Below, one piece after another: positions 6,870 to 26,418 of a DNA stretch of 64,000 bases. Under the pieces are notes generated by a model. That model searched no databases. It worked only from the letters and a program-made list of their open reading frames with translations, and was not told the DNA's origin. The stretch's first letter is position 1. Every line of letters begins with the position of its first letter. The stretch covers positions 1-64,000 of the forward strand of contig NZ_JACXAB010000022.1 in the NCBI RefSeq assembly GCF_014699075.1, given 5' to 3'. The position numbers and the translations under genes were made by a program. The stretch comes from Microvirga sp. (GTDB lineage Bacteria; Pseudomonadota; Alphaproteobacteria; Rhizobiales; Beijerinckiaceae).

Positions 6870-7583
6870 TCATGCGCTGAAGAGCTCCGGGTGCTCCGCC
6901 TCCACGCGCGGCAGGGCCCGCAGAATTTCCGTGAGGTGGCGGCGCATCGCGTCTGCAGCCGCATCCTCGTCCCGGGCATCGATCGCAGCCATGATGGCCC
7001 GGTGCTGGTCGATGAGGGGCAGCATCGCCTCCGGGCTCGGAAGGGTGAGCTGGCACACCCGGTCCATATGGGCCTTGATATCCTGGACCGCCTCCCAGGC
7101 CAGAGGGCAGCCGGCTCCTTCCGCAAGCGCGATGTGGAACAGTTCGTCATAGCGTTGGAAGGCCGCATGATCGTCCCGGCTGGCGGCTTGGGCCTGCAAC
7201 TCCAGAAGATCATCGATCCTTTCCCGGCTCTGCGTGTCGAACGAGGAGCAGGCCCGGCGCACCACAGCGGTCTCGATCGCCTCCCGGACGAAGCGCGATT
7301 CCATCATTTTCCGCACCGAGATCTTCACCACCGTCGTGCCGCGCTGGGGCTGGATTTCCACGAGCCTCGTCTTGGCCAGGCCGATAAGGGCCTCGCGGAC
7401 CGGCTGGCGGGAAACGCCATGACGCTCGGCGATGTCCTGCTCGGAGAGCCGGCTGCCCGGCGGGAGCTCCAGGGCGATGATCAGGCGACGCAACTCGCTT
7501 TCGATGCGCTGGGCCGCAGAGCCATGACCGGTAGGAAAGGGGCTGTTCACAATGGATCTCATTCTTTTGGCGAGTTGCGTCAT
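6870..7583 (-). CDS. GntR-family (FadR/FCD) transcriptional regulator of the TRAP-kdu operon
   Basis: This 237-aa regulator has an N-terminal winged helix (about residues 25-90, with LSEQDIAERHGVSRQPVREAL as the recognition segment) and a C-terminal FCD ligand-binding domain (about 95-225). It is transcribed divergently from the uronate TRAP/kduI/kduD/kdgF operon. This suggests control by a uronate, as for UxuR, ExuR or KdgR-like FadR regulators; that is inference from position. The first ATG has no clear ribosome site; an internal ATG eight codons later is an alternative start. Confidence 0.85.
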   Translation of the reverse strand: MTQLAKRMRSIVNSPFPTGHGSAAQRIESELRRLIIALELPPGSRLSEQDIAERHGVSRQPVREALIGLAKTRLVEIQPQRGTTVVKISVRKMMESRFVREAIETAVVRRACSSFDTQSRERIDDLLELQAQAASRDDHAAFQRYDELFHIALAEGAGCPLAWEAVQDIKAHMDRVCQLTLPSPEAMLPLIDQHRAIMAAIDARDEDAAADAMRRHLTEILRALPRVEAEHPELFSA

Positions 7584-7610
7584 ATATTAGTGTATACTAC
7601 CATACAATCG
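7581..7610. promoter_or_regulatory. candidate GntR operator in the divergent promoter region
   Basis: The segment reads TAGTGTATACTA then CCATACAAT. It contains a central palindromic GTATAC (7592-7597) and a five-base inverted repeat TGTAT/ATACA with a six-base spacer (7591-7606). A GTATAC core is also the centre of UxuR/ExuR operators in enterobacteria. The site overlaps the start of the regulator gene, where autoregulation and control of the operon beginning at 7743 could both act. This is a sequence-based suggestion only. Confidence 0.4.
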
Positions 7611-7742
7611 TCGACCAGAGGGCTGCGACAGACAGCTTCTGGCTCCGTCCCATGGGCTTGAGGGCTCCTGGGCGGGTGACGATCCGGCTGAAGGCTGGGT
7701 CTGAAAACAAGAAATCATCAGAGGACGCTCAAGGAGAAGACG

Positions 7743-8723
7743 ATGCTGACGAAAAGGACATTCGCCGCTGCTGCGCTTGGTCTGTGCACCGCACTGCTGA
7801 GCGGCACGGCCAGCGCCCAGACCACGCTGCGCTCGGCTGACATTCACCCGGATGGATACCCAACGGTCGAGGCAGTCAAGCATTTCGGCTCCCTGCTGGA
7901 GAAGAAAACCAACGGCCGGTACAAGGTGCAGGTCTTCCACTCCGCCCAGCTGGGTCAGGAAAAGGACACCATAGAGCAGACCCGCTTCGGCGTCATCGAC
8001 CTGAACAGGATCAATATGGGGCCGTTCAACAACCTGATTCCCGAGACCCTGGTGCCCGGCCTGCCCTTCATCTTCCGGTCCGTCGACCATATGCGCAAGA
8101 CCATGGACGGGCCCATCGGCGAACAGATCCTGAAGGCGTTCGAGCCTCATGGCCTTGTGGCGCTCGCCTTCTACGACTCGGGCGCCCGGTCCTTCTACAA
8201 TTCCAAGCGTGCCATCAACACGCCGGCCGACCTGAAGGGCATGAAGGTTCGGGTGATCCAGTCCGACCTCTTCCTCGACATGATCAATGCACTCGGAGCC
8301 AACGCGACCCCGATGCCTCCGGGAGAGGTCTACTCGGCGCTTCAGACCGGCGTGGTCGACGGAGCCGAGAACAACTGGCCGAGCTATGATTCCTTCCGTC
8401 ACTTCGAAGTGGCCAAGTATTACTCCCTCACCCAGCATTCCATGTCGCCGGAAGTGCTGGTGATGTCGAAGAAGAGCTTCGACAAGCTCTCGCCCGAGGA
8501 CCAGAAGGCCGTACGCGAAACCGCCAAGGAGTCCGTGGCGAAGATGCGTGAGCTCTGGGAAGCCCGCGAGAAGGAAGCCGAGAAGAAGATCCGGGCGAGC
8601 GGCAGCCAGATCAACGATGTGGACAAGCAGCCCTTCATCGACGCGATGAAGCCCGTCTACGAGAAGTACGCCAAGGACGCGAAGGTGAAGGACCTCGTGT
8701 CCCGCATCCAGGCGATGAACTGA
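7743..8723 (+). CDS. dctP: TRAP transporter solute-binding protein, DctP family (likely uronate)
   Basis: This is a periplasmic substrate-binding protein of a tripartite ATP-independent transporter, 326 aa. A signal peptide ends at about residue 25 (GTASA before QTTLRSA). The DctP fold is marked by the conserved segments DLKGMKVRV, with the carboxylate-binding Arg, and GVVDGAENN. A strong AAGGAG box precedes the ATG. It is followed by the DctQ and DctM genes and by kduI, kduD and kdgF, so the ligand is likely a hexuronate or unsaturated oligouronide. The exact ligand is inferred from neighbours. Confidence 0.9.
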   Translation: MLTKRTFAAAALGLCTALLSGTASAQTTLRSADIHPDGYPTVEAVKHFGSLLEKKTNGRYKVQVFHSAQLGQEKDTIEQTRFGVIDLNRINMGPFNNLIPETLVPGLPFIFRSVDHMRKTMDGPIGEQILKAFEPHGLVALAFYDSGARSFYNSKRAINTPADLKGMKVRVIQSDLFLDMINALGANATPMPPGEVYSALQTGVVDGAENNWPSYDSFRHFEVAKYYSLTQHSMSPEVLVMSKKSFDKLSPEDQKAVRETAKESVAKMRELWEAREKEAEKKIRASGSQINDVDKQPFIDAMKPVYEKYAKDAKVKDLVSRIQAMN

Positions 8724-8747
8724 GTTCGGTTCCTCCCGAACCAACCT

Positions 8748-8773
8748 GGGCCGGCTCCGGCCGGCCCCTTTTT
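8748..8773 (+). terminator. hairpin with UNCG tetraloop after the TRAP binding-protein gene (attenuator/3' stabiliser)
   Basis: A perfect eight-base stem (GGGCCGGC/GCCGGCCC) closes a TCCG tetraloop, a member of the very stable UNCG class, and is followed by C then TTTTT. It lies between dctP and dctQ inside one operon. It therefore probably lets only part of transcription through and protects the dctP message, giving more binding protein than membrane subunits. An analogous hairpin follows the ABC binding-protein gene (20009-20032). Confidence 0.7.
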
Positions 8774-8793
8774 CCTTCTGGAGATTTTGATCG

Positions 8794-9333
8794 ATGCGCG
8801 ATGGTCTTGCCGCGCTGTCCCGAATTCTTGCTGCTATCAACCGTGCGGCGCTTTGGATTTCCGGGGTCGGGCTCATTTTAATGACAGTCTTCGTCGGATG
8901 GCAGGTGTTCGGACGCTATGTGCTGAACCAGTCGCCGAGCTGGACCGAGCCGGCCTCCCTCCTGCTGATGAGCTGGTTCATTCTTCTCGGCTCTGCTGTC
9001 GGGGTGCGGGAGGGCAACCATCTCGGCTTCGAGATCGGTCTTCACTATGCTCCCCCAGGGTTGCGGCGCTTGATGCTCGGAGTCACGGAAGTTTTGGTTT
9101 TTGTCTTTGGCGCAGCCATGGCCTGGTACGGCACTGAGCTTGCCGTGGAGACCTGGTCGGCGGCGATGCCCGGTCTGCCGATCCCGCAAGGGTTCGACTA
9201 TGTCCCTCTTGCATTCGGCGGTGCCCTGATCGCCCTCTTTTCATTGGAAAAGTTCGTTCGCCTCCTCTCCCTGGGAGAAGACGTGCCGCTGGTGCGCGTG
9301 GACGAGCCTCATCTTGTTGCCGTGAAGGATTGA
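8794..9333 (+). CDS. dctQ: TRAP transporter small permease, DctQ family
   Basis: This is the four-helix small membrane subunit (179 aa) of the TRAP transporter. Hydrophobic segments lie at about 20-40, 53-72, 96-115 and 135-155. The sequence around FGRYVLNQSPSWTEPASLLLMSWFILLG matches the DctQ signature region of a helix-boundary Glu followed by a long membrane span. GGAG lies ten bases before the ATG. It pairs with the following DctM subunit, only four bases downstream of its stop. Confidence 0.88.
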   Translation: MRDGLAALSRILAAINRAALWISGVGLILMTVFVGWQVFGRYVLNQSPSWTEPASLLLMSWFILLGSAVGVREGNHLGFEIGLHYAPPGLRRLMLGVTEVLVFVFGAAMAWYGTELAVETWSAAMPGLPIPQGFDYVPLAFGGALIALFSLEKFVRLLSLGEDVPLVRVDEPHLVAVKD

Positions 9334-9337
9334 CGCC

Positions 9338-10618
9338 ATGGAGATGTGGGTTCTGTTCGGCGTCTTCACGCTGCTCCTTCTCATCGGCACGCCGGTTGCG
9401 TTCTGCCTCGGCATCGCGTCGCTTGCGACCATTCTCTACATGGGCTTGCCGCCCGTCGTGGTGTTCCAGCAGATCAATTCAGGCATGAACGCCTTCGCCA
9501 TGATGGCGATCCCGTTCTTCATCTATGCCGGTGATCTCATGATGCGGGGCGGCATCGCCGACCGCCTGATCCGTCTGGCCGCCGGTTTTGTCGGTCACCT
9601 GCGCGGCGGGCTCGGACAGGTCAACGTCGTGGCGTCGACGCTCTTCGGCGGTATCTCCGGATCGGCCATCGCGGATGCGTCCGCCATCGGCGGGATCATG
9701 ATCCCGCAGATGGAGAAGCGGGGATACGCCAAGGATTACAGCGTCAACGTGACGGTGAACGCCGCGATCATCGCGCTTCTGATCCCGCCGTCGCACAACA
9801 TGATCATCTACTCGATTGCGGCGGGCGGCACGATCTCGGTGGCGGATCTCTTCACGGCGGGCGTCCTGCCCGGGTTCCTCCTGGCGGCGGCCCTGATGAT
9901 CACGGCCTATGTCGTGGCCGTGCGCCGCGGTTATCCGGCCGATCCGTTTCCAGGCTTTCGGATGCTGGCCTACTTCTTCGCCTCTGCGGTGCCGGGCATC
10001 CTGCTGATCTTCATCATCTTCGGCGGCGTGCGTTCCGGCGTGTTCACCGCGACGGAGAGTTCGTGCATCGCGGTGGTGTATGCCCTGCTGGTCACGCTCC
10101 TTGTCTACCGCGAGATGAACTGGGAGAACTTCGTCGAGGCGACCCTCGGTGCCGTGCGCACCACCGCGATGGTGCTCCTCGTCATCGGCACCGCCAGCGC
10201 GTTCGGCTGGCTCATGGCCTTCCTGCAGGTGCCGCAGGCCACCATTGCCCTGATGAAGGCCGTATCGGACAACCCGATCGTCGTTCTGCTCCTCATCAAC
10301 GTCATCCTGCTGGTGCTCGGCACTTTCATGGATATGGCGCCGATGATCATCATCTGCACGCCGATCTTCCTACCGGTGATCAAGGCCTTCGGCATTGATC
10401 CCGTGCATTTCGGCGTGATCCTGATTCTCAATGCCGGTATCGGCCTCAACACGCCGCCGGTCGGATCCGTTCTGTTCGTCGGCTGCGCGGTCGGCAAGAT
10501 CACCATTGGCGAGGCCATGAAGACCATCTGGCCGTTCCTGGGCGCGAGCGTCCTCGTGCTGCTCCTCGTCACCTACATTCCTGGGCTGTCGCTCTGGCTG
10601 CCGGCCCTGTTCCGCTGA
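9338..10618 (+). CDS. dctM: TRAP transporter large permease, DctM family
   Basis: This is the large transport subunit (426 aa) that couples sodium-driven import to the periplasmic binding protein. It has about 12 hydrophobic segments. Family hallmarks include the early GTPVAFCLGIASL, STLFGGISGSAIADASAIG and LNAGIGLNTPPVGSVLF stretches, in the two inverted halves of the protein. It is full length and sits four bases after dctQ. The operon continues into kduI 23 bases later, linking import with unsaturated-uronate catabolism. Confidence 0.92.
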   Translation: MEMWVLFGVFTLLLLIGTPVAFCLGIASLATILYMGLPPVVVFQQINSGMNAFAMMAIPFFIYAGDLMMRGGIADRLIRLAAGFVGHLRGGLGQVNVVASTLFGGISGSAIADASAIGGIMIPQMEKRGYAKDYSVNVTVNAAIIALLIPPSHNMIIYSIAAGGTISVADLFTAGVLPGFLLAAALMITAYVVAVRRGYPADPFPGFRMLAYFFASAVPGILLIFIIFGGVRSGVFTATESSCIAVVYALLVTLLVYREMNWENFVEATLGAVRTTAMVLLVIGTASAFGWLMAFLQVPQATIALMKAVSDNPIVVLLLINVILLVLGTFMDMAPMIIICTPIFLPVIKAFGIDPVHFGVILILNAGIGLNTPPVGSVLFVGCAVGKITIGEAMKTIWPFLGASVLVLLLVTYIPGLSLWLPALFR

Positions 10619-10641
10619 TCCATTTACTGAAAGAGGCAATC

Positions 10642-11478
10642 ATGACCATCGAAATCCGGCAGGTCTGCCATCCCGAGGCCGTTCGTCATTTCAGCTCGGC
10701 CGAACTGCGCCGCCACTTCCTGATCGAGACGCTCTTCGTTCCGGGTGAGGTCAAGCTGACCTACAGCCATATCGACCGTCTGGTGGTCGGCGGCGTGACC
10801 CCGACCTCGGGGGCCATCAAGCTGGAATCGCACAAGCAGATCGGCTCCCCGAATTTCCTCGATCGGCGTGAGCTCGGCGTCGTGAACCTCGGTGGTGCGG
10901 GGCGCGTCCATACGGATGGAACCGTTCATGATCTTGCGCCCCGCGATGCGCTCTACATCGCCATGGGCACGAAAGACGTGCGCTTCGAGAGCCTTGACGC
11001 CGCAAGCCCGGCCAAATTCTATCTCGTCAGCACCCCGGCGCACGCCCGCTTCGAGACGGTGAAGATCGGCCTCGATCGGGCCCGCCGCGTGGATCTCGGT
11101 GATGCGGCGAACGGCAATGTCCGCACCATCTTCCAGATGATCCATCCGGAGGTCTGCCGTTCGGCGCAGCTCGTTCTCGGCATGACGCAACTCAAGCCGG
11201 GCAGCATGTGGAACACCATGCCGGCTCATCTCCACGATCGGCGCTCAGAGGTCTATGTCTATTTCGACATGCAGCCCGACACGCGCGTGTTCCACTTCAT
11301 GGGTGAGCCCGACGAGACCAAGCATCTCGTCGTGTCGAACGAGCAGGCGATCCTCTCGCCGGGCTGGTCGATCCATTCCGGCGTCGGCACCAGCAACTAC
11401 ACCTTCGTGTGGGCCATGGGCGGGGACAACCAGGACTTCACCGACATGGACATGGTGCCCATGGACGCCCTACGCTGA
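10642..11478 (+). CDS. kduI: 5-dehydro-4-deoxy-D-glucuronate isomerase (KduI)
   Basis: KduI isomerises 4-deoxy-L-threo-5-hexosulose uronate, produced from unsaturated galacturonate, to 3-deoxy-D-glycero-2,5-hexodiulosonate in the cytoplasm. The 278-aa protein has the double cupin fold. The zinc ligands His196, His198, Glu203 and His245 sit in AHLHDRRSEVYVYF and GWSIHSG, at the same numbers as in E. coli KduI. GAGG near the start and an operon position directly before kduD fit the pathway. This is a firm assignment. Confidence 0.96.
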   Translation: MTIEIRQVCHPEAVRHFSSAELRRHFLIETLFVPGEVKLTYSHIDRLVVGGVTPTSGAIKLESHKQIGSPNFLDRRELGVVNLGGAGRVHTDGTVHDLAPRDALYIAMGTKDVRFESLDAASPAKFYLVSTPAHARFETVKIGLDRARRVDLGDAANGNVRTIFQMIHPEVCRSAQLVLGMTQLKPGSMWNTMPAHLHDRRSEVYVYFDMQPDTRVFHFMGEPDETKHLVVSNEQAILSPGWSIHSGVGTSNYTFVWAMGGDNQDFTDMDMVPMDALR

Positions 11479-11488
11479 GGACATGGCG

Positions 11489-12247
11489 ATGACGTTCTCT
11501 TTCGATCTGACAGGCAAGACCGCTCTCGTCACTGGGGCCAACACGGGCCTCGGTCAGGGTATTGCGGTGGCGCTGGCCCAAGCCGGCGCTTCCGTCGTGG
11601 CGGTCGGCCGCTCCAGCATGGACGAGACGGAGCGCCTGTGTCGCGAGGCAGGCACTGGGTTCCACAGCGTGCAGGCGGACCTGTCCTCCCTCGAGCCGAT
11701 CGAGCGCATCGTCACTGACGCCGTCACTCTGACCGGCCGCGTCGACATTCTCGTCAACAACGCCGGCATCATCCGGCGGGCCGATGCCATCGCATTCACG
11801 GAACAGGATTGGGACGACGTGATGAACGTCAATCTCAAGTCCACCTTCTTCCTGTCCCAGGCTGTGGCGCGCACAATGATGGCCGATGAACAGGGCGGCA
11901 AGATCATCAACATCGCTTCGCTCCTGTCTTTCCAGGGCGGGATCCGGATTCCCTCCTACACGGCAAGCAAGAGCGGACTTGCCGGCCTCACGCGGCTTTT
12001 GGCCTGCGAGTGGGCGTCGAAGGGCATCAACGTCAACGCCATCGCGCCGGGCTATTTCGTCACCAACAACACCGAGGCTCTGCGCAACGACCCGAAGCGC
12101 AGCAGCGAGATTCTCGGCCGGATCCCCGCGGGCCGCTGGGGCGACCCGGCTGACCTCGGCGGCGCCGCCGTCTTCCTAGCCTCGTCTGCAGCAAACTACA
12201 TCCACGGCATCGTCCTGCCCGTCGACGGCGGATGGCTTGCCCGGTAA
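11489..12247 (+). CDS. kduD: 2-dehydro-3-deoxy-D-gluconate 5-dehydrogenase (KduD), SDR family
   Basis: KduD reduces 3-deoxy-D-glycero-2,5-hexodiulosonate to 2-keto-3-deoxygluconate with NADH. The protein is 252 aa from the ATG at 11489, which has GAGG eight bases upstream; an ATG six bases earlier is too close to that box. SDR features are the nucleotide motif TGANTGLGQG (15-24), NNAG (90-93) and the catalytic Ser144, Tyr157 and Lys161 (YTASK). It immediately follows kduI. KDG kinase and KDPG aldolase, needed next, are not in this window. Confidence 0.93.
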   Translation: MTFSFDLTGKTALVTGANTGLGQGIAVALAQAGASVVAVGRSSMDETERLCREAGTGFHSVQADLSSLEPIERIVTDAVTLTGRVDILVNNAGIIRRADAIAFTEQDWDDVMNVNLKSTFFLSQAVARTMMADEQGGKIINIASLLSFQGGIRIPSYTASKSGLAGLTRLLACEWASKGINVNAIAPGYFVTNNTEALRNDPKRSSEILGRIPAGRWGDPADLGGAAVFLASSAANYIHGIVLPVDGGWLAR

Positions 12248-12265
12248 ATCATTTCGGAGACGATC

Positions 12266-12616
12266 ATGACTCGCAAAGGTTTAGCCTTCGCTTTCGACCG
12301 TGAAACCGCCTGGGAGGCTGCAGGAGAGGGCATCCGCCGCAAGGTGCTGACCTACGACACGGGCGTGATGATGGTGCGCGTGGCCTTTGAGGCGGGAGCC
12401 GTCGGCGTTCCCCATTTCCATCCGCACGTCCAGTGCAGCCTGGTCGAGCAGGGTGTCTTCGACGTTACCATCGACGGCCGCACCGAACGGCTGAGGCAGG
12501 GCGACAGCTTCCTTGTCCCGCCGAATGCCGTCCATGGAGCGGTTGCCGTTGAGGCCGGCGTTCTCCTCGATGTCTTTACGCCGATGCGGGACGATTTCGT
12601 TGCAGCGGACGCGTGA
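12266..12616 (+). CDS. kdgF: KdgF-type cupin: unsaturated uronate ring-opening enzyme
   Basis: KdgF converts 4,5-unsaturated monouronates, released by pectate or alginate lyases, to the linear ketonised form that KduI or a DEH reductase can use. The 116-aa single cupin has candidate metal ligands His50, His52, Gln56 and His90 in VPHFHPHVQ and PNAVHG, the pattern known for KdgF. The gene closes the TRAP-kduI-kduD operon, 18 bases after kduD. Its presence implies that lyase products, not just saturated uronates, feed this operon. Confidence 0.88.
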   Translation: MTRKGLAFAFDRETAWEAAGEGIRRKVLTYDTGVMMVRVAFEAGAVGVPHFHPHVQCSLVEQGVFDVTIDGRTERLRQGDSFLVPPNAVHGAVAVEAGVLLDVFTPMRDDFVAADA

Positions 12617-12626: not shown

Positions 12627-13403
12627 TTAGTTGCCCGATAGGTTTGAAAGCCAGACCAAACCGTCCTCGGTGCGCCCGCGCGGCCGGTACTCGGCTCCGA
12701 CCCAGCCCTGGTAGCTCAGGCTATCGAGTGTTCGGAAGATATCCCGATAATTGACCTCACCCTCGTCCGGCTCGGCGCGACTCGGCACCGCGGCGATCTG
12801 CACATGGCCGATGAGGTTCAGATGGGTCCTCAGCCGCGTGGTCAGATCGCCCTGGGTGATCTGCACGTGGTAGCAGTCGAACATGAGCTTGATATTGCGG
12901 CGCCCGGCCTGCTCGATGATGGCGGCTGCCTGCTCCACGTGGTGGAGAAAATACCCCGGCCGGTCGCGATGGTTCATCGGCTCGATCAGGATCGTCATGC
13001 CTGCCTGACCGGCCCTGTCGGCCGCCATCTGCAGGTTGGTGATGAAGGTGCGCTCGGCAGCCATCCGCTCATCGGCGGAAACGATCCCGGCGAGGCAGTG
13101 AAGCGCCGAGGCTCGGATCGTGCTGCCATATGACAGGGCTTGATCCAGGGCATGCTGGAACTCGCTCTCGCGGCCCGACAGGGCGGCCAAGCCGAAATCG
13201 CCCGCGGCGTTCCCGATGGGCATGTTCAAACCGAGCATGGTGAGGTCGTGGCTTGCCAGTGCCTCGCGCATGTCATGGGCGGGCACGTGGTAAGGCCAAT
13301 GCATCTCGACGGCCTTGAAGCCGCAGGAGGCAGCGGCAGCGACCCGCTCGATCTCAGGGCGATCGGAGAAGAGAAAACCCAGATTGGCCGAGAAACGGGG
13401 CAT
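12627..13403 (-). CDS. hydroxypyruvate isomerase family (Hyi/OtnI) TIM-barrel protein
   Basis: This 258-aa xylose-isomerase-like TIM barrel is closely related in pattern to E. coli Hyi: it begins PRFSANLGFLF and has the metal and catalytic Glu segments ILIEPMNHRD and VGAEYRPRG. The family isomerises hydroxypyruvate to tartronate semialdehyde or, for OtnI, 2-oxo-tetronates. The two cannot be told apart here. It is convergent with kdgF, with ten bases between, so it is part of the same sugar-acid island but in its own transcript. Confidence 0.85.
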   Translation of the reverse strand: MPRFSANLGFLFSDRPEIERVAAAASCGFKAVEMHWPYHVPAHDMREALASHDLTMLGLNMPIGNAAGDFGLAALSGRESEFQHALDQALSYGSTIRASALHCLAGIVSADERMAAERTFITNLQMAADRAGQAGMTILIEPMNHRDRPGYFLHHVEQAAAIIEQAGRRNIKLMFDCYHVQITQGDLTTRLRTHLNLIGHVQIAAVPSRAEPDEGEVNYRDIFRTLDSLSYQGWVGAEYRPRGRTEDGLVWLSNLSGN

Positions 13404-17648: not shown

Positions 17649-19985
17649 TCAGAACTCCTTCGGCAGCACCACCGAGAATTCCTGATCATTTTCGTCGACG
17701 AAATAGATATCGGTGCTGAAGCCCTGATCGTCGATGAAGTGCAGGACGCGCGACGGCTCACTCAGAGCATAGGGAACGAGAAGCGTGACCAGGTTGTGCT
17801 GTCGGGCAGCGGGCATGTCGGCAGCAAGATGCCATTGCAGTGGAAGGCCTTCGATCTCCGCCGGGTCAACGTCCGGAAAGCCCTGGTGCTGCCGGAGAAC
17901 GGGCTTGCCCGCGCTGCTGAAGACAAAGTGACCGTAAAGGCCTGCCTGCTTGCCAGTCACCCGGAAGGTCTGGCCGCCGATCTCCATCTCGTGCTCGGTG
18001 TGGAACAGGAACGTGATCGGCTCCGGCTCGTCGAGCGAGATCCGGTCAACGATCACGAAGTAGCGCTCGCGCACGAAATGCACGTCCCGTTGCGCCAGCT
18101 TCACTCCGGGATTGAGGGACCGGTACGCGGCGGTGGCGTCTCCGCTCATGAAGATGCTTGTGGCATTCTGCTTCACGGCGAGAAGTTTGCCTGAGGCTGC
18201 TTTGCCCAGTGCCTTGTCGCGTTCTGCGTACTGGCCCTTGCCGCCGATCAGGATTGCGTTCTTGGAACGCGTCTGACGGCGCCAGAGGCGATGCATGGTG
18301 GAGTTGAACGCCACGTAATAGCCGCCCTGGATGGCCAGATCCTCGCCAAAGGCACGCAGCAGGAACGCATTCTGGTCGCCGTGGCTATGGCTCAGGGAGC
18401 CGTAGGGACTGCTCTTGAACACAAACTGAAGGTGGCGTGCGGGATCGCCCATGTCCTTCTGAAGAGCGACCCAGCCGACATCGTGGAACACGTGCAGCAG
18501 CGGGAGATCCGTCGGCGGCCTGGCCTCGACGGCGTTAAGATCGTGGGCGTATTGCAGGTCCTCGAAGGCGAAGTCCCACCAGCCGTAATTGTAGAACAGG
18601 TCCTCGGTGCCTGGATCGTCGCGCTTCACCTGCTCAAAGTACCATTGGTAATGGCCGTTGCCTGTCGCCCCGGCGAACTGGCGCATGTTGTAGCCGGTCT
18701 TGAGACTTGGCGGATCCCCCATGGTGGAATCGTCACCGAAGCAAGTGCGGCGCACTCCTGGCGCCTTGGTGTAGAGGGGGAAGTTGCCGGTGGCCTGGAA
18801 AAAGGTTCGCTGCAGAACGTCAACGCCGTAGTAGTTGCGGATGAGACCGGCCGCCTCCAGCAGATAAGCCATACCGGTCGTCCAGTAATGCGGTCCTTCC
18901 GCCCAGCCGCCATCCCTCGCGCCCCAGGGAGCGTAGATGCTGAACAGATACTCGACCGTGTAGTCGAGCCAGTCCTGGACCTCCTTGTCCTCATCGTCCA
19001 GCAAAGCGATGCAGCAAGGTGTCAGCACGGCCGACAGGGCTCGCACCGCATGACTGTCATAAGGAAAGATGTGGATGCGGGCATGGCCGATGACATGGTC
19101 GGCGATTTCGCGGGTTCTCGCGAGGAGGGCCGCCCGGACGATCATCCGCTCCTGCGCATCGAGACAGCCGTAAAGCCAATCGTAACCCCAGGCGAGGGCG
19201 CCCGCCACGCGAAACGCCGCCTCGTCGTTATAGGCCCGGGATGTCGGCCCGAGCACATCCCAGTCGGCGACAGCGAGAAGCCATTCCTTGGCCCGTACGA
19301 GAAGTTCCTCGTCTTCCAGCAGGCGGCCGGCGATCGCCAAGTGCCGTATGGCGTAGATCACCTCCTGGCAATCGATGTACATCTGCCGCCACAGGGAGGC
19401 GACCCGCTTGTTGTTGGGATAGGGAGCAGGCTCCGCGATGATGGGCCGGTCGATCCATGGCTTGACTGATCGTTCGTAGAAATTCCGGAATCCGCAATGG
19501 TCCGGATCATCCTTCAGGGCCGCGGCAAAGGCGCGGGTCTTGTCCTGGTTCAGCCAGAGTCGCGGATGGGACGGAAGGGCGGCCCTGGCCCGGGCCGTGC
19601 CGGATGGGAGCGGCACCGGATCCAAGCCTGCTGGCACAGTAAAGCAGCGGCTCTCGCTCCAGGCGCTCGCAGGAGCACCCTCGTCTGGGTCCCAGACGGC
19701 GTAAGCCCACGAATATTCCCCCGGATCATAGGCGTGATCCGGCGTGAAAAAGTTTCTCGGCAGGTTCTCGTAGATGAAGAGGGGCCTGCTGTTCACGCTG
19801 CGGCCCTCTGTCACCTTCAGAACGTAGCATGACCCTTCGTCCAGAGTGGGAAGCCACACGAACCGCGGCGGGTTCTCGTAGACCTCTTCGGCATCCGGTG
19901 TGTATTTCACCGTCAGCGTACCGGCCTTCGGCTGGTCGAGGATGGTCTGCTTGGCGGCGGAATGCGGGGAGACGCTGGTCGACAT
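17649..19985 (-). CDS. exolytic oligoalginate lyase, PL15 family (Atu3025-like)
   Basis: This 778-aa protein matches the length and conserved blocks of Agrobacterium Atu3025 (PL15, 776 aa), which degrades alginate oligomers to unsaturated monouronates in the cytoplasm. It has an N-terminal beta domain with ENPPRFVWLP, a central alpha/alpha barrel and a C-terminal heparinase II/III-like beta-sandwich with KSSPYGSLSHSHGDQNAF. The catalytic pair is predicted as His312 (YDSHAVRAL) and Tyr367 (GPHYWTTG), aligned with His311 and Tyr365 of Atu3025. No signal peptide is present. The ATG at 19985 is preferred; an upstream-extended frame is not supported. It is last-but-one in the alginate operon. Confidence 0.9.
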   Translation of the reverse strand: MSTSVSPHSAAKQTILDQPKAGTLTVKYTPDAEEVYENPPRFVWLPTLDEGSCYVLKVTEGRSVNSRPLFIYENLPRNFFTPDHAYDPGEYSWAYAVWDPDEGAPASAWSESRCFTVPAGLDPVPLPSGTARARAALPSHPRLWLNQDKTRAFAAALKDDPDHCGFRNFYERSVKPWIDRPIIAEPAPYPNNKRVASLWRQMYIDCQEVIYAIRHLAIAGRLLEDEELLVRAKEWLLAVADWDVLGPTSRAYNDEAAFRVAGALAWGYDWLYGCLDAQERMIVRAALLARTREIADHVIGHARIHIFPYDSHAVRALSAVLTPCCIALLDDEDKEVQDWLDYTVEYLFSIYAPWGARDGGWAEGPHYWTTGMAYLLEAAGLIRNYYGVDVLQRTFFQATGNFPLYTKAPGVRRTCFGDDSTMGDPPSLKTGYNMRQFAGATGNGHYQWYFEQVKRDDPGTEDLFYNYGWWDFAFEDLQYAHDLNAVEARPPTDLPLLHVFHDVGWVALQKDMGDPARHLQFVFKSSPYGSLSHSHGDQNAFLLRAFGEDLAIQGGYYVAFNSTMHRLWRRQTRSKNAILIGGKGQYAERDKALGKAASGKLLAVKQNATSIFMSGDATAAYRSLNPGVKLAQRDVHFVRERYFVIVDRISLDEPEPITFLFHTEHEMEIGGQTFRVTGKQAGLYGHFVFSSAGKPVLRQHQGFPDVDPAEIEGLPLQWHLAADMPAARQHNLVTLLVPYALSEPSRVLHFIDDQGFSTDIYFVDENDQEFSVVLPKEF

Positions 19986-20038: not shown

Positions 20039-21586
20039 TCAGCGATATTGGCGGTCGTAGGCTTTCTGCATGACGGCAAGAACCTGATCCAAGCCGAGTT
20101 TCTTCAGCTGGGCGTTGTAGGTCTCCCAGTCCTTGTCCACATCCCGGGAGCCCAGGATCCAGGCCTGCATCTGCTCGATCATGAAGGTTTGTATATTGGG
20201 CATGTGACGGTCGAAGATCTGACGCTCGTCCGTTGTCATGCTCACGCCGAGGAACTCGTCGATGAGGTAGTTGCCTTTCTCGTAGAGCTCGATGCCCTTT
20301 AGTGCGTTCTCGTCGGTCCATTGGCGCTCATACTCATAGTCCTGCCAGAAGCCGATCGGGATCTGGGCACCGATGTCCCACATCTGCGCATTCACCGGCG
20401 CCTTGGCACTCAGGATCTCCGGCTTGTAGCGAGGCTTGCCGTCCACCATGTCGTAATGCTGCCCCTCGACACCGAAGTTCGAGAGAAGGCGGCCTTGCGG
20501 TGTGAAGTAGAAGTCGAAGAGCTTGATCGTTTCGACCGGGTTCTTGTTGGCGACAGTGATCGCCCAGCCATCGGGCCGCAGACGGGCGCGACGGTTCTCG
20601 TTGATGCGCTTGCCCGAGGCACTGGCCGGCGGGGCAATCGCCAGGAACTTCATGCCCGGCACCTTGTCCTTGAGGCTGGTGTTGTAGCTGGCGGTCGAGG
20701 CGAACCAGTCATAGGTCATGCCGCCTTGATTGGCACCGAGAAGCGCCTCGCGGGCGCGAGCTCGGCGGGTATAGACCTCCTTGTCGATGAGACCTTCCGC
20801 ATACCATTTGGCGATGTTGCGGATGCCGGTCCGATAATTGTCGCCTGAATAGGGATGTCTAACCTTGCCGTTGTCGATATAGAAGTCATGCGCTGCGTCC
20901 GAGCCGCTGGATCGGCCGTCCCAAAGGACCACAAGGCGCTGGAGTTCAGAGTCGGGCTCGCGGATGAAGAGCGGGACCTCATCCTTCTGGCCATTCCCAT
21001 TCGGGTCGCGCTCGCGGAAGGCCTTCAGCACCGTGTAGAGCTCATCGACCGTTTGCGGCGGCTGCAGGCCTAATTTTTCCAGCCAGTCGTAGCGGATGAA
21101 CCAGCCGCGGGCGTATTTTCCGTCTGGAATATAGGGTACCCAGTAGATGTTCCCGTCCGGCGCCGTGATGGCTTTGCGCACGGTCTCGTTCTCGGCGAGG
21201 AACCGCTTCAGGTTCGGGGCGTGCTGGTCGATGAGCTTGTTGAGGGGCTGGAAAGCGCCCTCCATTCCATAGCGCACGAAATCGTGCCGGAGCTCATTGC
21301 CTGCAACGATGTCCGGCAGGTTGCCGGAAGCCATCAGGAGGTTGAACGCCTCCCGGCTGAGGGTGGTGGCCTTCGACGCGACGTTCTTCAGCTTGATGCC
21401 CGTGAGCCGGTTCAACTCCTTGGCCACGGGCCAGTCGTCGTTCCACACGTACTTGTCGCGAAAGTGCATGTGGATCGTCAGTTCGAGCGGCTTATCGGTG
21501 ATCTTGGTCGTCTTGGCGTCCTGAGCCGCGGCGGGCGCTGCGGCCAGCAAGGCCGACAGCAGCGCGGCCGTCATCATCCTTTTCAT
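20039..21586 (-). CDS. algQ: alginate/oligouronide ABC transporter binding protein (AlgQ-like)
   Basis: This is a periplasmic extracellular solute-binding protein, 515 aa, with a signal peptide ending at about residue 21 (AAPAAA before QDAK). The sequence closely follows Sphingomonas AlgQ1/AlgQ2 (for example LTIHMHFRDKYVWNDDWPVAK near the start and GAQIPIGFWQDYEYERQW near the end). It carries the calcium-binding loop DPNGNGQKDE at 194-203. AlgQ proteins bind alginate oligosaccharides and deliver them to the AlgM1-AlgM2 permease. Both permeases and two alginate lyases flank it, so the substrate assignment is strong. Confidence 0.9.
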   Translation of the reverse strand: MKRMMTAALLSALLAAAPAAAQDAKTTKITDKPLELTIHMHFRDKYVWNDDWPVAKELNRLTGIKLKNVASKATTLSREAFNLLMASGNLPDIVAGNELRHDFVRYGMEGAFQPLNKLIDQHAPNLKRFLAENETVRKAITAPDGNIYWVPYIPDGKYARGWFIRYDWLEKLGLQPPQTVDELYTVLKAFRERDPNGNGQKDEVPLFIREPDSELQRLVVLWDGRSSGSDAAHDFYIDNGKVRHPYSGDNYRTGIRNIAKWYAEGLIDKEVYTRRARAREALLGANQGGMTYDWFASTASYNTSLKDKVPGMKFLAIAPPASASGKRINENRRARLRPDGWAITVANKNPVETIKLFDFYFTPQGRLLSNFGVEGQHYDMVDGKPRYKPEILSAKAPVNAQMWDIGAQIPIGFWQDYEYERQWTDENALKGIELYEKGNYLIDEFLGVSMTTDERQIFDRHMPNIQTFMIEQMQAWILGSRDVDKDWETYNAQLKKLGLDQVLAVMQKAYDRQYR

Positions 21587-21644: not shown

Positions 21645-22559
21645 TCATTCTTTGACTCCGCCGAGTGTGATGCCTTTGTTGAAGTATTTCTGGACGTATG
21701 GAAAAACGATCACGATGGGCAGGATCGACACGACCATGATGGCCGCCGTGATCGTCTCGAACGAGTAGTCCGTCGACATGAGCCCGCTGGCGAAGCTGTC
21801 GTCGCTGCGCATGTCGACGATCGTCCGCTTCAGGTAGACCTGAAGCGGGACCTTCTCCTCGCTGCGCAGAAGCACCATGGCCCAGAAATAGCCGTTCCAG
21901 CGGGAGACGAGGCACAGGAGCGCGACCGTGATGATCGCCGGTTTGGCAAGCGGGATGAAGATCTTCCACAGCAACTGGAAGTCGCTCGCACCGTCGATCC
22001 GGGCTGCCTCCTCGAACGAGGCCGGCACGGATTCGAAGTAGTTGCGCAGAAGGATCACGTTGAAGGCGTTGCAGGCGAAGGCCAGGACGATGCCGAGGCG
22101 CGCGTCGAGCAGACCGAGATCGCGGACGTTGAGGAAGAATGGGATGAGCCCGGCATGGAACCACATGGTGAAGGCGATCATGAAGCCGATGACGCGGCGC
22201 CCCCTCAGCCGCGCCCGCGACAGCGCAAAGGCGCCCGGCACCATGATGAGGAGGCTCGTGATGGTGCCGAAAAAGGCGTAGAACAGCGTGTTGCCGTAGG
22301 CGATCCAGAACTTCTGGTCCGCGAGCACATACTCGTAGGCGGCGAGCGTGACGTCCACCGGCCAGAGCGTGACCTGGCCTGACGTGACCGCAAAGCCGGA
22401 ACTCAGCGACGCCGACAGGATGTAGATGAAGGGATACAGGGTGCTCAGCACAAAGAGCAGGAGGAGCGCCGTGTTGGCGAAGCCGAAGATCCTGTCTCCC
22501 CGGGTATAGAGATTGAAAGGTTCGTGTGAGGTGTCGGAGGTGAGTGCACGAGAGGACAT
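21645..22559 (-). CDS. algM2: alginate ABC transporter permease (AlgM2-like)
   Basis: This is a six-helix inner-membrane permease of the carbohydrate-uptake CUT1 type (MalG/LplC-like), 304 aa. The ATPase-contact loop EAARIDGASDFQLLWKIFIPLAKP is present near residue 200. It overlaps no gene and sits between the AlgQ-like and AlgM1-like genes, as in the Sphingomonas A1 alginate importer. With AlgM1 it forms the channel for alginate oligomers. The AlgM2 name follows order and length; no AlgS-type ATPase is encoded nearby. Confidence 0.85.
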   Translation of the reverse strand: MSSRALTSDTSHEPFNLYTRGDRIFGFANTALLLLFVLSTLYPFIYILSASLSSGFAVTSGQVTLWPVDVTLAAYEYVLADQKFWIAYGNTLFYAFFGTITSLLIMVPGAFALSRARLRGRRVIGFMIAFTMWFHAGLIPFFLNVRDLGLLDARLGIVLAFACNAFNVILLRNYFESVPASFEEAARIDGASDFQLLWKIFIPLAKPAIITVALLCLVSRWNGYFWAMVLLRSEEKVPLQVYLKRTIVDMRSDDSFASGLMSTDYSFETITAAIMVVSILPIVIVFPYVQKYFNKGITLGGVKE

Positions 22560-22568
22560 ACTGGAACC

Positions 22569-23609
22569 TCACCAGACCGAGTGCTGGCTGTAGCGACGGC
22601 TCAGCCAATTGGCGCCCACCACGAGGACGAGGGCCACGACCGCGTTGAAGAGATCCGCCGCCGTGCCGAGCGCATATTGATTGTTCTGGAGGCCCGCACG
22701 GTAAATGAAGGTCGAGATCACATCGGCGGTCTCGAAGGTGGCGGGCTGGTAGAGCAGGATGATATATTCGAAATTGACCTCGATGAGCTGGCCGACACGG
22801 ATGATCAACATGATCATGATCACCGGGAGGAGCGAGGGCAGGGTGATGTAGCGGATCATCTGCAGGCGCGAGGCGCCGTCCATGCGGGCGGATTCATAGA
22901 GCGCCGGATTGATGCCGGCGATGGCCGCCAGATAGACGATCGAGTCGAAGCCGGCCTCCTTCCAGATATTGGAGCCGATGAAGATCGGGCGGAAATACTC
23001 CGGAATCGTGAGGAAGTAGATCTTCTCAAAGCCGAGGCGATCCAGGATGATGTTCACGATTCCGGTCGTTGGCGATAGGAAACTCACCACGAGACCGGCG
23101 ATGATCACCACCGAGATGAAATGCGGCAGGTAGGTGATGGTTTGGGCGATCCGGCGAAATCCTTGGTGGTGGATCTCGTTGAACATCAGGGCCAGGACGA
23201 TCGGAACCGGGAAGGCGAAGACGAGCGAGTAGAAGCTGATGAGGAGCGTGTTCTTAACCGCCCGCAGGAAGTACTCGTTGCTGAAAAGGGCGACGAAATT
23301 ATCGAAGCCGATCCACGGACTGCCCTCGATCCCACGGAACAGGCTGTATTGCTTGAACGCGATCTGGAGCCCGTACATCGGCGTGTAGAGGAAAACCACG
23401 AACCAGATGATCATGGGGGCGAGCAGCACATAGAGCTGCCAGTCCCGGCGCATGTCGCTGAGCAGAGTGCGAACCGCCTTGCGGAAGTCGTATCCTGGAC
23501 CGGTCGAGGAAAAGGCCGGTGGCGTGGCGAGTTCAGGCGTCGCGATGACGCCGTCCATGATTCTCACGGATCCGCCGCCGCTCTCCCTGTCGAGTGCCGC
23601 GTCTGCCAT
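22569..23609 (-). CDS. algM1: alginate ABC transporter permease (AlgM1-like)
   Basis: This is the first permease of the importer (346 aa), LplB/MalF-like. Its cytoplasmic N-terminus of about 70 residues is followed by six predicted helices, the first near YVLLAPMIIWFVVFLYTPMY. The coupling loop is YESARMDGASRLQMIRYITLP. The ATG at 23609 is chosen because of the GGGAGG box just upstream; the frame opens further 5' but into the GntR gene. It starts 38 bases after the regulator gene, so the regulator is probably the first gene of the operon. Confidence 0.85.
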   Translation of the reverse strand: MADAALDRESGGGSVRIMDGVIATPELATPPAFSSTGPGYDFRKAVRTLLSDMRRDWQLYVLLAPMIIWFVVFLYTPMYGLQIAFKQYSLFRGIEGSPWIGFDNFVALFSNEYFLRAVKNTLLISFYSLVFAFPVPIVLALMFNEIHHQGFRRIAQTITYLPHFISVVIIAGLVVSFLSPTTGIVNIILDRLGFEKIYFLTIPEYFRPIFIGSNIWKEAGFDSIVYLAAIAGINPALYESARMDGASRLQMIRYITLPSLLPVIMIMLIIRVGQLIEVNFEYIILLYQPATFETADVISTFIYRAGLQNNQYALGTAADLFNAVVALVLVVGANWLSRRYSQHSVW

Positions 23610-23647
23610 CCTGCCTTCCTCCCTTCGCCTCCGCTTCTGTTCTTGGC

Positions 23648-24409
23648 TTATGCGGAGAGTCTGAACCGTGGGCGTTCCCGGTTGATCGCCTCGAAGAGCG
23701 CCCAGAACTCCGGGTTCTCCCCAAGCTCCCAAACTTTGGTCTCGATGCTGCCGAGATGGGCGCGCATGGCTTCCTCGGCTTTGGCCGGGTCCTTGTCGGC
23801 GATCGCCGACGTGATCGACCGATGCTGGGCCAGAACCCGATCCGTGGCGCGGATGTTCAGGCGCTGCTTGAGGCTGCGGATCCGGTCGATCTCGACCTTC
23901 GCGGTCTCAAGGAGCTGAATGACTCCTGGCAATTTTGCGGCTTCGATGACGAGGAAGTGAAACTCCTCGTCGAGGTGCCTGAACGCCGTGTAATCCTCGG
24001 CTGCTATGACCTCTTCCTGACGGGCAAGGCAGGCTTTCAGGTTGCAGACGTCCTCGAGACTCCGCTCCTCGGCCGCGCGCTTGGCTGCGCCGCTCTCGAG
24101 TTGCAGACGGACGAAGCAGCCTTCCATGAAGCGATCGAGATTAATCGGCGCCACATAGGTCCTGCTTTTTGGAACGACCGTGACGAGTCCTTCCTCGGAC
24201 AGCCGGATGATCGCCTCGCGCACCGGCGTCTTGCTGACCTCCAGGCACGCGGCCACGTCTTTTTCCGACAGGGTCTGCCAGGGAAGCAGAATGGTTTCGA
24301 GGATGAGGGTCCTCAAGGCCCTGTGGATCTGCACGACGAGCGGACCACCCCCGGCCAGAAGGCTGGGCTGAAGGACGTCTGTAAGCGGTCTTTCAACGGG
24401 CAGCGCCAT
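23648..24409 (-). CDS. GntR-family (FadR/FCD) regulator of the alginate genes
   Basis: This 253-aa regulator has a winged-helix domain (about 25-95, LSEKDVAACLEVSKTPVREAI) and an FCD effector domain (about 100-235) with the usual metal-binding His residues. It heads the alginate transport/lyase operon on the minus strand and is divergent from the SDR gene at 24517. It may repress both until an alginate-derived uronate or KDG is present. That role is inferred from position and from repeat sites in the intergenic region. Confidence 0.85.
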   Translation of the reverse strand: MALPVERPLTDVLQPSLLAGGGPLVVQIHRALRTLILETILLPWQTLSEKDVAACLEVSKTPVREAIIRLSEEGLVTVVPKSRTYVAPINLDRFMEGCFVRLQLESGAAKRAAEERSLEDVCNLKACLARQEEVIAAEDYTAFRHLDEEFHFLVIEAAKLPGVIQLLETAKVEIDRIRSLKQRLNIRATDRVLAQHRSITSAIADKDPAKAEEAMRAHLGSIETKVWELGENPEFWALFEAINRERPRFRLSA

Positions 24410-24413
24410 AACA

Positions 24414-24443
24414 GAGATATCACCTTATAGTTCTAAGATATCA
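24414..24443. promoter_or_regulatory. candidate operator: two AGATATCA sites 21 bp apart
   Basis: An eight-base sequence AGATATCA, with a self-complementary GATATC core, occurs at 24415-24422 and again at 24436-24443, exactly two helical turns apart. Both lie just upstream of the GntR start and before the divergent SDR gene. Paired palindromic half-sites at that spacing fit a dimeric regulator bound on one face of the DNA. No other evidence of binding is available. Confidence 0.45.
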
Positions 24444-24516
24444 GTTGACGGGGCTCTGGCAAGAGACATTTGATGGCAAAAGCGTTCACGAGCGCATTGC
24501 CTGCAGGGAGGCCGCC

Positions 24517-25284
24517 ATGTCTTCAGAGTTCCAGTTTGCCGGAAAGACCGTCCTGATCACCGGCGGGGCATCCGGGATCGGTGCCGCCGCTACCCGCGCC
24601 TTCGCCTCAAACGAGGCAAAGGTGGCTTTCACCTATATGACGAGCGCCGAGGAAGCCGGAACCTTGGAGCGTGATCTCAATGGCTCGGAGCGCCAGGTCA
24701 TGGGCATCAAAGCCGACATGACGGATCCCGCCAGCGTTGCCGACGCGTTCAGGAGGGCCGAGGAGGCGTTTGGACCGGTCGACATCCTGTTTGCCAATGC
24801 TGGCGGCCTGCTCAAGCGCAGCCGCTGTGTCGATGCGTCCTTGGATCTCTGGCAGGAGGCGATTGCCGTCAACCTGACGGGCACGTTCCTCGCCTGTCAG
24901 CTGGCTCTGCGCAGCATGGAGCCCCGGAAGTCAGGAACCCTCGTGCTGATGTCCTCGCTTGCCGCGTTCGACGGCGGTGGCCCCGGCGCCTCGCATTACG
25001 CGGCGACCAAGGGTGCGGTCGCGACTTATGTCCGGGCGCTGGCGAAGGAAGTCGGCCCGCTGGGGATCCGCGTGAACGGGGTAGCGCCCGGCCTTATCGG
25101 CACACGCTTCCATGATGTGTTCAGCACGCCCGAGGGGCGCAAGGCAACGGTCGAGCGAACCCCTCTCCGCCGGGAGGGGACTCCGGAGGATGTTGCCGAA
25201 GCGGTGCTCTTCCTCGCGTCAGACCGCGCCTCCTATCTGTCTGGAGAAATCCTCCAGATCAACGGCGGCCTCGGCATGATCTGA
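24517..25284 (+). CDS. SDR-family oxidoreductase, candidate DEH (alginate monomer) reductase
   Basis: This 255-aa short-chain dehydrogenase starts at the ATG preceded by GGGAGG. It has TGGASGIG for NAD(P) binding, NAG (ANAGG), a catalytic Ser in MSSLAAF and the YAATK motif. It lies divergently from the alginate regulator and next to the PL5 lyase gene. In alginate degraders an SDR in this position reduces 4-deoxy-L-erythro-5-hexoseulose uronate to KDG. That specific activity is inferred from neighbours; the sequence alone supports only SDR membership. Confidence 0.8.
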   Translation: MSSEFQFAGKTVLITGGASGIGAAATRAFASNEAKVAFTYMTSAEEAGTLERDLNGSERQVMGIKADMTDPASVADAFRRAEEAFGPVDILFANAGGLLKRSRCVDASLDLWQEAIAVNLTGTFLACQLALRSMEPRKSGTLVLMSSLAAFDGGGPGASHYAATKGAVATYVRALAKEVGPLGIRVNGVAPGLIGTRFHDVFSTPEGRKATVERTPLRREGTPEDVAEAVLFLASDRASYLSGEILQINGGLGMI

Positions 25285-25323
25285 CGAACAGCGCGCCTCG
25301 CTCTCTCGCATCACAAGCAGGGG

Positions 25324-26418
25324 TTACTGGCTGCCGTGAAAGAGAAGCGTCAGGTCTCCCCCGAGCCCGCTTGAGGCGAGAGGGCGCCTTGATGCGATCA
25401 CCGCCTCGATGCTGGGCGAGGGGAAGCGGCTCTGGTAGATTTCAAGCCAGGCGATGCGGTTGGGCGGGACGGTGCCGTCGCCCGAAAAAGCCTCCTGCTT
25501 CGTGCCCGCGGCCTTCTCGAAGAAGGACGGGTCGTCAAGGGATGCAACCACCCGGTCCGCCAGCCGCCTCAAGGCGCCATTGTTTTCCGCATAAAGGTCG
25601 ACACCTCGGCTGCGCGCCAGTTGCGCAGTAGCAACGAGCGGTTCCGCTGCGTAGATATGGTAGTCGCGGGCACGCTTTCCCCGGCTGATTTCGAGCGGCA
25701 ATGTGCCTTCCGGGGTGATCTGCGAAAGGCCGATGCGGGCGCTCTCAACGCCCCAATCGGCCAAGCGCTTGTCATCGGCGGCGATGCCTGCCGCAGTGGC
25801 GGCAAGGCCTGCCCAGTAGCGGTGGTTGTTCCGCCCTGAGACCTCGTGGTTCTCATCCATGAAGTTGACCACTTGCTGGCCGAGTGCCTTGAGCCAGGCT
25901 TCGACCCGCTTTTTCTTGTCTTTCTGCAGGTCTGGAGCATTCCGGATCTGGAGATAGGCCAGCGCGAAGCCGCCGAGGGTCTGGCCCAGATTGAACAGGG
26001 CTTGCTTCGAGCGCATGTCGGTCATTGCATTCGCCGAAGCCCAACGCTCCAGCCAATCAAGCGCACAAGCGGCTGCCGCCGGATTTGAGCGCACATAATC
26101 GTTGGCGATTTGCACCAGCCCTTTGGCGTAAGCCCGAAGCGGCACCACAGCCTTCAGGTAGGTCTCGTTGGCGTTTTCATCGACCGTCGCGCGGAAGCTA
26201 TCGGCCTGCTTATACTTGCTCTGCGTCTCAAGGGTGATCACAGGCGCTCCAGGCATCTCGCATTTGTATTCCGGCTCCGCCTGCCCCCTGTCCTTGCCGA
26301 GAGCCGGCACGAGGTACCCCGCCCCTTGCGCTTGACCCGGTGCTGCCTGCAACAGGGCGAGGAGAACCGCACCAAGTCGGACGCTGCACAAGACCCGATC
26401 GCTGGAACCGAGAGGCAT
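25324..26418 (-). CDS. algL: poly(beta-D-mannuronate) lyase, PL5 (AlgL-like), exported
   Basis: PL5 lyases cleave alginate by beta-elimination in the periplasm. The protein is 364 aa with a signal peptide of about 31 residues. The catalytic residues map as Asn198-His199 (NNHRYWAGL), Arg246 (LEISRGKRA) and Tyr253 (DYHIY), matching Asn201, His202, Arg249 and Tyr256 of Pseudomonas AlgL with a constant offset of three. The ATG at 26418 has AGGAG upstream. It lies convergent with the SDR gene and supplies oligomers to the AlgQ/AlgM system. No alginate-synthesis (alg8/44) genes are nearby, so a catabolic role is more likely than polymer editing. Confidence 0.88.
   Translation of the reverse strand: MPLGSSDRVLCSVRLGAVLLALLQAAPGQAQGAGYLVPALGKDRGQAEPEYKCEMPGAPVITLETQSKYKQADSFRATVDENANETYLKAVVPLRAYAKGLVQIANDYVRSNPAAAACALDWLERWASANAMTDMRSKQALFNLGQTLGGFALAYLQIRNAPDLQKDKKKRVEAWLKALGQQVVNFMDENHEVSGRNNHRYWAGLAATAAGIAADDKRLADWGVESARIGLSQITPEGTLPLEISRGKRARDYHIYAAEPLVATAQLARSRGVDLYAENNGALRRLADRVVASLDDPSFFEKAAGTKQEAFSGDGTVPPNRIAWLEIYQSRFPSPSIEAVIASRRPLASSGLGGDLTLLFHGSQ

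Follow-up and report, generated by a model that had tools for sequence, protein, structure and literature searches.

Two uronate gene sets in a Microvirga contig

We analysed a stretch of 64,000 nucleotides from Microvirga sp. (contig NZ_JACXAB010000022.1; genome size 6.6 Mb), called the window here, and within it region 6870-26418, which extends from the stop codon of a GntR-type regulator gene (GntR1) to the likely start of a polysaccharide lyase family 5 (PL5) gene. Two gene sets, or arms, lie in this region (Table 1). In the left arm, GntR1 is divergent from dctP-dctQ-dctM-kduI-kduD-kdgF, which encode a TRAP transporter and enzymes of unsaturated uronate catabolism. The right arm, on the minus strand, comprises a second regulator gene (GntR2), two ABC permease genes, and the genes for an AlgQ-like solute-binding protein, a family 15 polysaccharide lyase (PL15) and a DUF3616 protein; a short-chain dehydrogenase/reductase (SDR) gene is divergent from it. 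The arms do not abut cleanly, as four genes of other kinds separate kdgF from PL15. Using profile and PDB sequence comparisons, we recovered in place every gene named in a preliminary description of this DNA, which had reported a TRAP/Kdu side and an alginate side, each with its own GntR regulator. These are ordinary catabolic modules of known kinds, and the point of interest is an importer without its own ATPase. We put a probability of roughly 75% on the reading that two independent known modules lie close together here and that the importer is probably powered by an ATPase encoded elsewhere.

Table 1 Features of region 6870-26418, in window coordinates. Start codons are our choice; the bounds of kduD, permease 1 and the SDR gene are approximate.
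Feature	Position	Strand	Match or remark
GntR1, GntR/FCD regulator of the left arm	6870-7583	-	Pfam FCD 1e-26, GntR 1.2e-17
Left-arm promoter block	7588-7607	-	Holds TGTATGGTAGTAT on the - strand; palindrome-like TAGTGTATACTA at 7588-7599
dctP, TRAP solute-binding protein, probably hexuronate-type	7743-8723	+	Pfam DctP 1.1e-93
dctQ	8794-9333	+	Pfam DctQ 3.4e-29
dctM	9338-10618	+	Pfam DctM 2.1e-118
kduI, 5-keto-4-deoxyuronate isomerase	10642-11478	+	NF002091 431.7 bits (cut-off 250); PDB 1ywk 347 bits
kduD	~11483-12247	+	TIGR01832 403.3 bits (cut-off 338.85)
kdgF-like cupin	12266-12616	+	PDB 5fpx 1.4e-24, 5fq0 5e-23
2-oxo-tetronate/hydroxypyruvate-isomerase-like (Hyi/OtnI-like) gene	12627-13403		Between kdgF and PL15
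HWE histidine kinase	13479-15533		Between kdgF and PL15
PRC-barrel protein	15623-16330		Between kdgF and PL15
DUF3616	16457-17566	-	Between kdgF and PL15
PL15 oligo-alginate exolyase	17649-19985	-	1117 bits to Atu3025 (3a0o)
AlgQ-like alginate-binding protein	20039-21586	-	705 bits to AlgQ2
ABC permease 2 (AlgM-like)	21645-22559	-	BPD_transp_1 9.5e-17
ABC permease 1 (AlgM-like)	~22569-23609	-	BPD_transp_1 1.1e-12
GntR2, GntR/FCD regulator of the alginate arm	23648-24409	-	Pfam FCD 6.3e-24
Tandem operator-like sites GTGATATCTCTG + CTGATATCTTAG, 21 bp apart, between GntR2 and SDR	24412-24444	-	
SDR, probable DEH reductase, divergent from GntR2	~24517-25284	+	
PL5 lyase	25324-26418	-	Pfam Alginate_lyase 5.4e-42

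The right arm is an alginate locus of standard composition

Judged by its sequence matches, the right arm is a genuine alginate locus with the standard gene set, and the earlier assignment of its AlgQ-like protein, two permeases, PL15, SDR and PL5 is thereby borne out. As expected of a PL15_1 oligo-alginate lyase, the PL15 protein aligned with Atu3025 of Agrobacterium over its full length (residues 9-778 of 778), with identity at the positions of His311, Tyr365, His531 and Arg199. Arg199 is presumably a functional residue of PL15. His311 and Tyr365 are the proposed catalytic pair, and an effect of H531A is described in PMC11921355. We compared the locus with 32 PL15 loci from Rhizobiales outside Microvirga and with six named Microvirga PL15 loci, among them BSC39 (L007), M. 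arabica (L033) and M. aerilata (L040). PL15 is 85-95% identical to the six Microvirga records and 61-62% identical to the copies of A. tumefaciens (L016, L021 and L024). The binding protein and two permeases expected of an AlgSM1M2Q-type importer are present, and the permeases have counterparts in all 32 other Rhizobiales loci (69-74% identity for permease 2 and 60-70% for permease 1). The order GntR-permease-permease-binding protein-PL15, followed by SDR, was likewise found in 32/32 of these loci.

The SDR was less easily placed by profiles: its best 25 NCBIfam matches were general SDR models only, all under cut-off. It is 41-45% identical to the SDRs that follow PL15 in the 32 Rhizobiales loci. 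In whole-genome searches its best match was the gene directly behind PL15 in Agrobacterium (L016) and Chelatococcus (L031); in Paenibacillus (L043) it preceded PL15 by about 2 kb. Because the genome-wide best match sits at or near PL15 in 3/3 other-genus genomes tried, we consider the SDR a likely reductase of 4-deoxy-L-erythro-5-hexoseulose uronate (DEH) with A1-R type function, which agrees with its proposed role as the alginate-side route to 2-keto-3-deoxygluconate (KDG).

Compared with the Agrobacterium-type cluster around Atu3025, the Microvirga locus shares the GntR, two permeases, AlgQ-like binding protein, PL15 and SDR, but has no ATPase gene and has PL5 added; its SDR is divergent from GntR, whereas theirs lies downstream of PL15. 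AlgO of Sphingomonas sp. A1 is a GntR-type regulator. The AlgS-AlgM1-AlgM2-AlgQ1/Q2 and AlgO system of that strain, as outlined in PMC8778563, resembles the window in its AlgQ-type binding protein, exolytic lyase and in-cluster regulator, whereas the window has no AlgS and only one AlgQ. Among the literature matches listed, no paper had both alginate and Microvirga in its title or abstract. With this locus, a group of soil Microvirga joins the likely alginate users.

An importer without its own ATPase gene

The preliminary description overlooked that the importer has no ATPase gene, a modest transporter variant and the one oddity of the locus. A motif scan placed an ABC ATPase between GntR and the permeases in all 32 non-Microvirga Rhizobiales loci, whereas the scan found no ABC ATPase, and hence no AlgS counterpart, in the 64-kb window, the nearest candidate being on another contig. 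The scan also found none in five of the six named Microvirga PL15 loci (L004 ends 3.5 kb past PL15), and tblastn with two Rhizobiales ATPases (E <= 0.01) detected no remnant in the window, L004-L007 or L033. An ATPase hidden or decayed within the window was therefore rejected.

These absences would also be expected if the importer were broken or idle in most Microvirga through loss of its ATPase. We consider this very improbable: when the window was compared with the six named Microvirga loci, 79-98% conservation was seen for PL15, the binding protein and the two permeases, which is not a pattern of decay, and ATPases shared between importers are known. According to PMC7658222, it is established for MsmX of Bacillus that one ATPase serves several importers, and the ATPase of a Gram-negative cyanobacterium can substitute for MsmX. 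The Microvirga importer is like those served by MsmX in B. subtilis in having no ATPase of its own, a likeness that here is drawn from gene content and in a different phylum.

The exception among the Microvirga loci is M. aerilata, where the start of an ATPase gene lies about 35 bp beyond PL15. When this ATPase was compared with five Microvirga genomes, the best match in each was an ATPase with 68% identity. In a tree built from 41 of the 63 ATPases collected (22 Rhizobiales rows were omitted), that of M. aerilata was sister to a group of solitary ATPases (99/94), apart from the Rhizobiales alginate ATPases. The solitary MalK/UgpC-type ATPase of this genome lies on contig C68 (G000:C68:91493-92542; L104:9494-10579) beside genes for a flavin adenine dinucleotide (FAD)-dependent oxidoreductase, an FAD-linked oxidase, phosphoenolpyruvate carboxykinase, a citrate-transporter family protein and a glutamine amidotransferase. 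No ABC permease or binding protein was found among the 6 scanned of the 14 open reading frames around it, and five of the six scanned neighbours, checked in M. terrestris, keep the same order. Copies at least 93% identical are present in the six PL15-positive genomes examined (G000, G006, G012, G027, G032 and G062). The PL15-less genomes G008, G025 and G033 have copies at 93-95% too, and a dedicated alginate ATPase restricted to PL15-positive genomes was accordingly not supported. More broadly, the solitary ATPase had matches at E <= 1e-140 in 41/48 Microvirga genomes, and G016, G065 and G069 each have several copies (87-88%). The second-best candidate in the genome, on contig C37 (62%), appears by eye to have its own permeases alongside.

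From these comparisons we tentatively suggest, at somewhat less than even odds, that the Microvirga alginate importer has lost its dedicated ATPase and draws instead on the solitary, separately encoded CUT1-type ATPase, which may power several importers as MsmX does, and that M. aerilata would have placed the same ATPase lineage in the operon. The locus offers a clear test case of ATPase sharing in a Gram-negative importer.

The left arm resembles a scavenger of uronate monomers

In the left arm, kduI, kduD and kdgF lie within one operon, as a KduI/KduD/KdgF route calls for. The kdgF product matched the solved KdgF or pectin degradation protein chains 5fpx, 5fpz and 5fq0 at 84-90 bits, and its top PDB match overall was 7zyb, titled just 'Cupin'. 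The nearest PDB relatives of DctP are 4x8r, 4n8y, 4ovr and 4mhf, which we take to be hexuronate-binding proteins. A further relative, 4n15, was the template used for glucuronate-binding STM3169, according to PMC7660916. The arm is widespread in the genus: KduI was at least 88% identical in 25/48 Microvirga genomes, and any KduI match was found in 32/48. We fetched the loci of 19 of the 24 other genomes with KduI at or above 88%, and all 19 have the seven left-arm genes together, with GntR1 copies 86-96% identical.

Whether this arm is 'pectin-type', as first described, depends on which evidence is considered. TRAP-kduI clusters on plasmids of A. larrymoorei and Nitratireductor thuwali similarly have dctPQM, kduI and a cupin/KdgF gene together, with about 70% DNA identity over 61-64% of the query; kduD is listed in A. 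larrymoorei only, in a PLSDB gene table that is incomplete. The A. larrymoorei genes are near an ABC transporter and genes of glycoside hydrolase (GH) families GH28 and GH88, which supports the label, whereas no such genes matched in the Microvirga loci; those of Nitratireductor are near uxaC and a GH88-family gene. Queries with the A. larrymoorei GH28 and GH88 proteins matched none of 27 Microvirga sequences (the window, 20 further fetched loci and six named PL15 loci) at E <= 1e-4. As a control, both queries matched their own A. larrymoorei plasmid locus, and GH88 also matched the Nitratireductor locus. A genome-wide search gave zero matches to PF00544, PF14583 and PF07470 (PL1, PL22 and GH88/105), with GH28, PL9 and PL10 outside its scope, and we therefore rejected pectin degradation by this genome via PL1, PL22 or GH88/105. 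Two routes to the KduI substrate, PL22 plus KdgF or GH105, are described in PMC7953866. Because no PL1, PL22 or GH88/105 match was found in the genome, the left arm looks like a scavenger of uronate monomers released by others and not a pectin degrader, which is our best reading of its sequence. For annotation, this kduI operon, for which none of the customary pectin enzymes was found, is better read as a monomer scavenger.

The promoter blocks of the two arms differ

GntR2 is 32% identical to GntR1, and each regulator gene is preceded by its own conserved block. Upstream of GntR1, a block with TGTATGGTAGTAT was present, by eye, in 20/20 left-arm genomes. A strict TAGTnnnnACTA palindrome occurs in only four of the 20 and was rejected as the left operator; the longer block was for this reason taken as the footprint. 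Upstream of GntR2, at least two core sites of the GATATC/GATATG type were found in 33/39 loci and in 41/7800 random windows drawn from these loci, a contrast that is not to be read as a probability, since the core pattern was chosen after viewing, the loci are related and the random windows may include the operator. Among those 33 loci the sites are spaced by 20-21 bp in 30 and by 40 bp in three; the six loci missing two core sites are L005, L018, L024, L040, L059 and L064.

In the other Rhizobiales loci (L008-L032, L059, L061-L064, L066 and L067), tandem GATAT(C/G)T sites lie upstream of the alginate GntR, three in 16/32 and two in 12/32, mostly 20 bp apart, compared with two sites 21 bp apart in the window. 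The last site apparently overlaps the GntR start codon (by eye). From its position and sequence, the tandem array looks like an autoregulatory operator.

No exact copy of the right-arm motif was found near the left arm or the PL5 promoter within the window; the nearest weak match differs at two positions and is located inside the isomerase gene (12708-12719). We rejected a shared regulator for both arms, as each arm has a conserved block of its own that is absent from the other, and coordination through a common operator appears unlikely for the same reason.

Two modules or one uronate island

Taken together, the gene sets suggest the following scheme. PL5 would make alginate oligomers in the periplasm, and the AlgQ-like protein with its two permeases would import them, powered by a MalK/UgpC-type ATPase encoded elsewhere, for which the solitary C68 gene is the best candidate. 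A cytoplasmic PL15 would cut the oligomers to unsaturated monouronate, which yields DEH, and the SDR would reduce DEH to KDG. From the tandem GATATC-type sites, GntR2 may control both the operon it belongs to and the divergent SDR gene. In the left arm, the TRAP transporter would import ready-made uronate monomers, which KdgF, KduI and KduD would convert to KDG under the control of GntR1. The expectation that both pathways end at KDG is thus supported by the gene sets.

Distribution of the arms agrees with their independence. PL15 was found in 5/37 Microvirga genomes, and comparison with the 25/48 that have KduI at or above 88% indicates that many genomes carry the left arm by itself. The left arm adjoins the alginate arm in three of seven Microvirga PL15 loci (the window, BSC39 and M. 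arabica). The arms are 18 kb apart in M. terrestris (G012) and on separate contigs in M. soli (G006) and M. arvi (G032); in M. aerilata the left arm was not found within 10 kb of PL15. In the fetched flanks of the PL15 loci, a kduI or kdgF match at E <= 1e-4 was found in 0/27 Paenibacillaceae and Rhodocyclales loci and in 0/32 other Rhizobiales loci, and because of the latter the alginate arm does not need either gene in cis.

Several observations weigh against two independent modules with an externally encoded ATPase. All five PL15-positive Microvirga genomes also carry the left arm, which lies within about 20 kb of PL15 at 4/7 Microvirga loci, so that a functional tie is possible. What supports the promoter blocks is their conservation in related genomes, judged by a core pattern picked post hoc. 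By count, the left motif is not above chance (one match in the window; mean of 1.14 in shuffles), and its uniqueness proves nothing because genome-wide it has one match and its reversed control two. The right motif has seven matches in the window where 8.33 are expected; within one mismatch it occurs at 27 places genome-wide and the reversed control at 11, which makes single sites outside the locus uninformative. No alginate-operator match (up to one mismatch) was found at the solitary C68 ATPase, and the M. aerilata ATPase was flagged as a long branch in the tree. The genome holds 24 ATPase matches at E <= 1e-60, and another ATPase could therefore serve the importer.

Some of these points would fit one integrated uronate island, in which the left-arm enzymes KdgF, KduI and KduD handle unsaturated monomers from alginate as well and proximity is kept for joint work. 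Within the alginate arm there is no separate kdgF gene, searches for a PL1, PL22 or GH88/105 enzyme that could supply the left arm found none, and KdgF acts on unsaturated uronates of both kinds (Hobbs et al., as told in PMC8778563). It is thus biochemically possible that KdgF serves both arms, as had been proposed. But the promoter blocks differ, many genomes without PL15 have the left arm, and the other Rhizobiales PL15 loci have no kduI or kdgF nearby, and we judge an integrated island unlikely. Two independent modules remain our preferred reading. The 'coordinated' scavenging suggested earlier did not hold up in view of the distinct promoter blocks, the PL15-less genomes with a left arm and the four genes between the arms; the neighbouring position here is no evidence of co-regulation.

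The PL5 lyase

The PL5 protein has a PF05426 domain, keeps the Asn-Asn-His (NNH) and Arg...Tyr motifs in alignment with PDB PL5 enzymes and has, by eye, a probable signal peptide. Its closest solved structures are 7fhz/7fhu ('Polysaccharide lyase'), above 4ozv ('Alginate lyase') and far above A1-III. We take 7fhz/7fhu to be the broad-substrate enzyme Smlt1473. Because the gene is convergent with SDR, it lies outside the right-arm operon and would have its own transcript.

It is possible, although we think it the less probable case, that PL5 serves exopolysaccharide synthesis or turnover (AlgL-like), or acts on another polyuronate, and lies here by chance. Its separate orientation, a promoter without the alginate operator and top PDB relatives titled 'Polysaccharide lyase' all fit this view, as does the presence of two further PL5 genes elsewhere in the genome, one of which, on contig C46, is 69% identical; moreover, PL5 was not found in M. 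aerilata or in the 32 other Rhizobiales PL15 loci. Set against this, PL5 is at the SDR end in five of the six named Microvirga PL15 loci, and the catalytic motifs of alginate lyases are retained. PL5 here looks exported, whereas the Sphingomonas sp. A1 lyases are described, in PMC8778563, as acting on alginate after import. The 69% paralogue (L107:7342-9643, G000:C46) adjoins a Tlde1-domain gene.

Neighbouring genes

The Hyi/OtnI-like isomerase, HWE kinase and PRC-barrel genes accompany the left arm in five Microvirga genomes (the window, L007, L033, L192 and L194). They do so in M. soli too, where PL15 is on another contig, and G033 (L178) has a left arm with only the isomerase and HWE kinase genes of this trio. 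DUF3616 follows PL15 in the window and L007, with no copy detected in L033, L004-L006 or L040; its place is occupied in M. aerilata by the ATPase. An Amidoligase_2 family gene (26595-27509 of the window), divergent from PL5, is retained in L006, L007 and L033.

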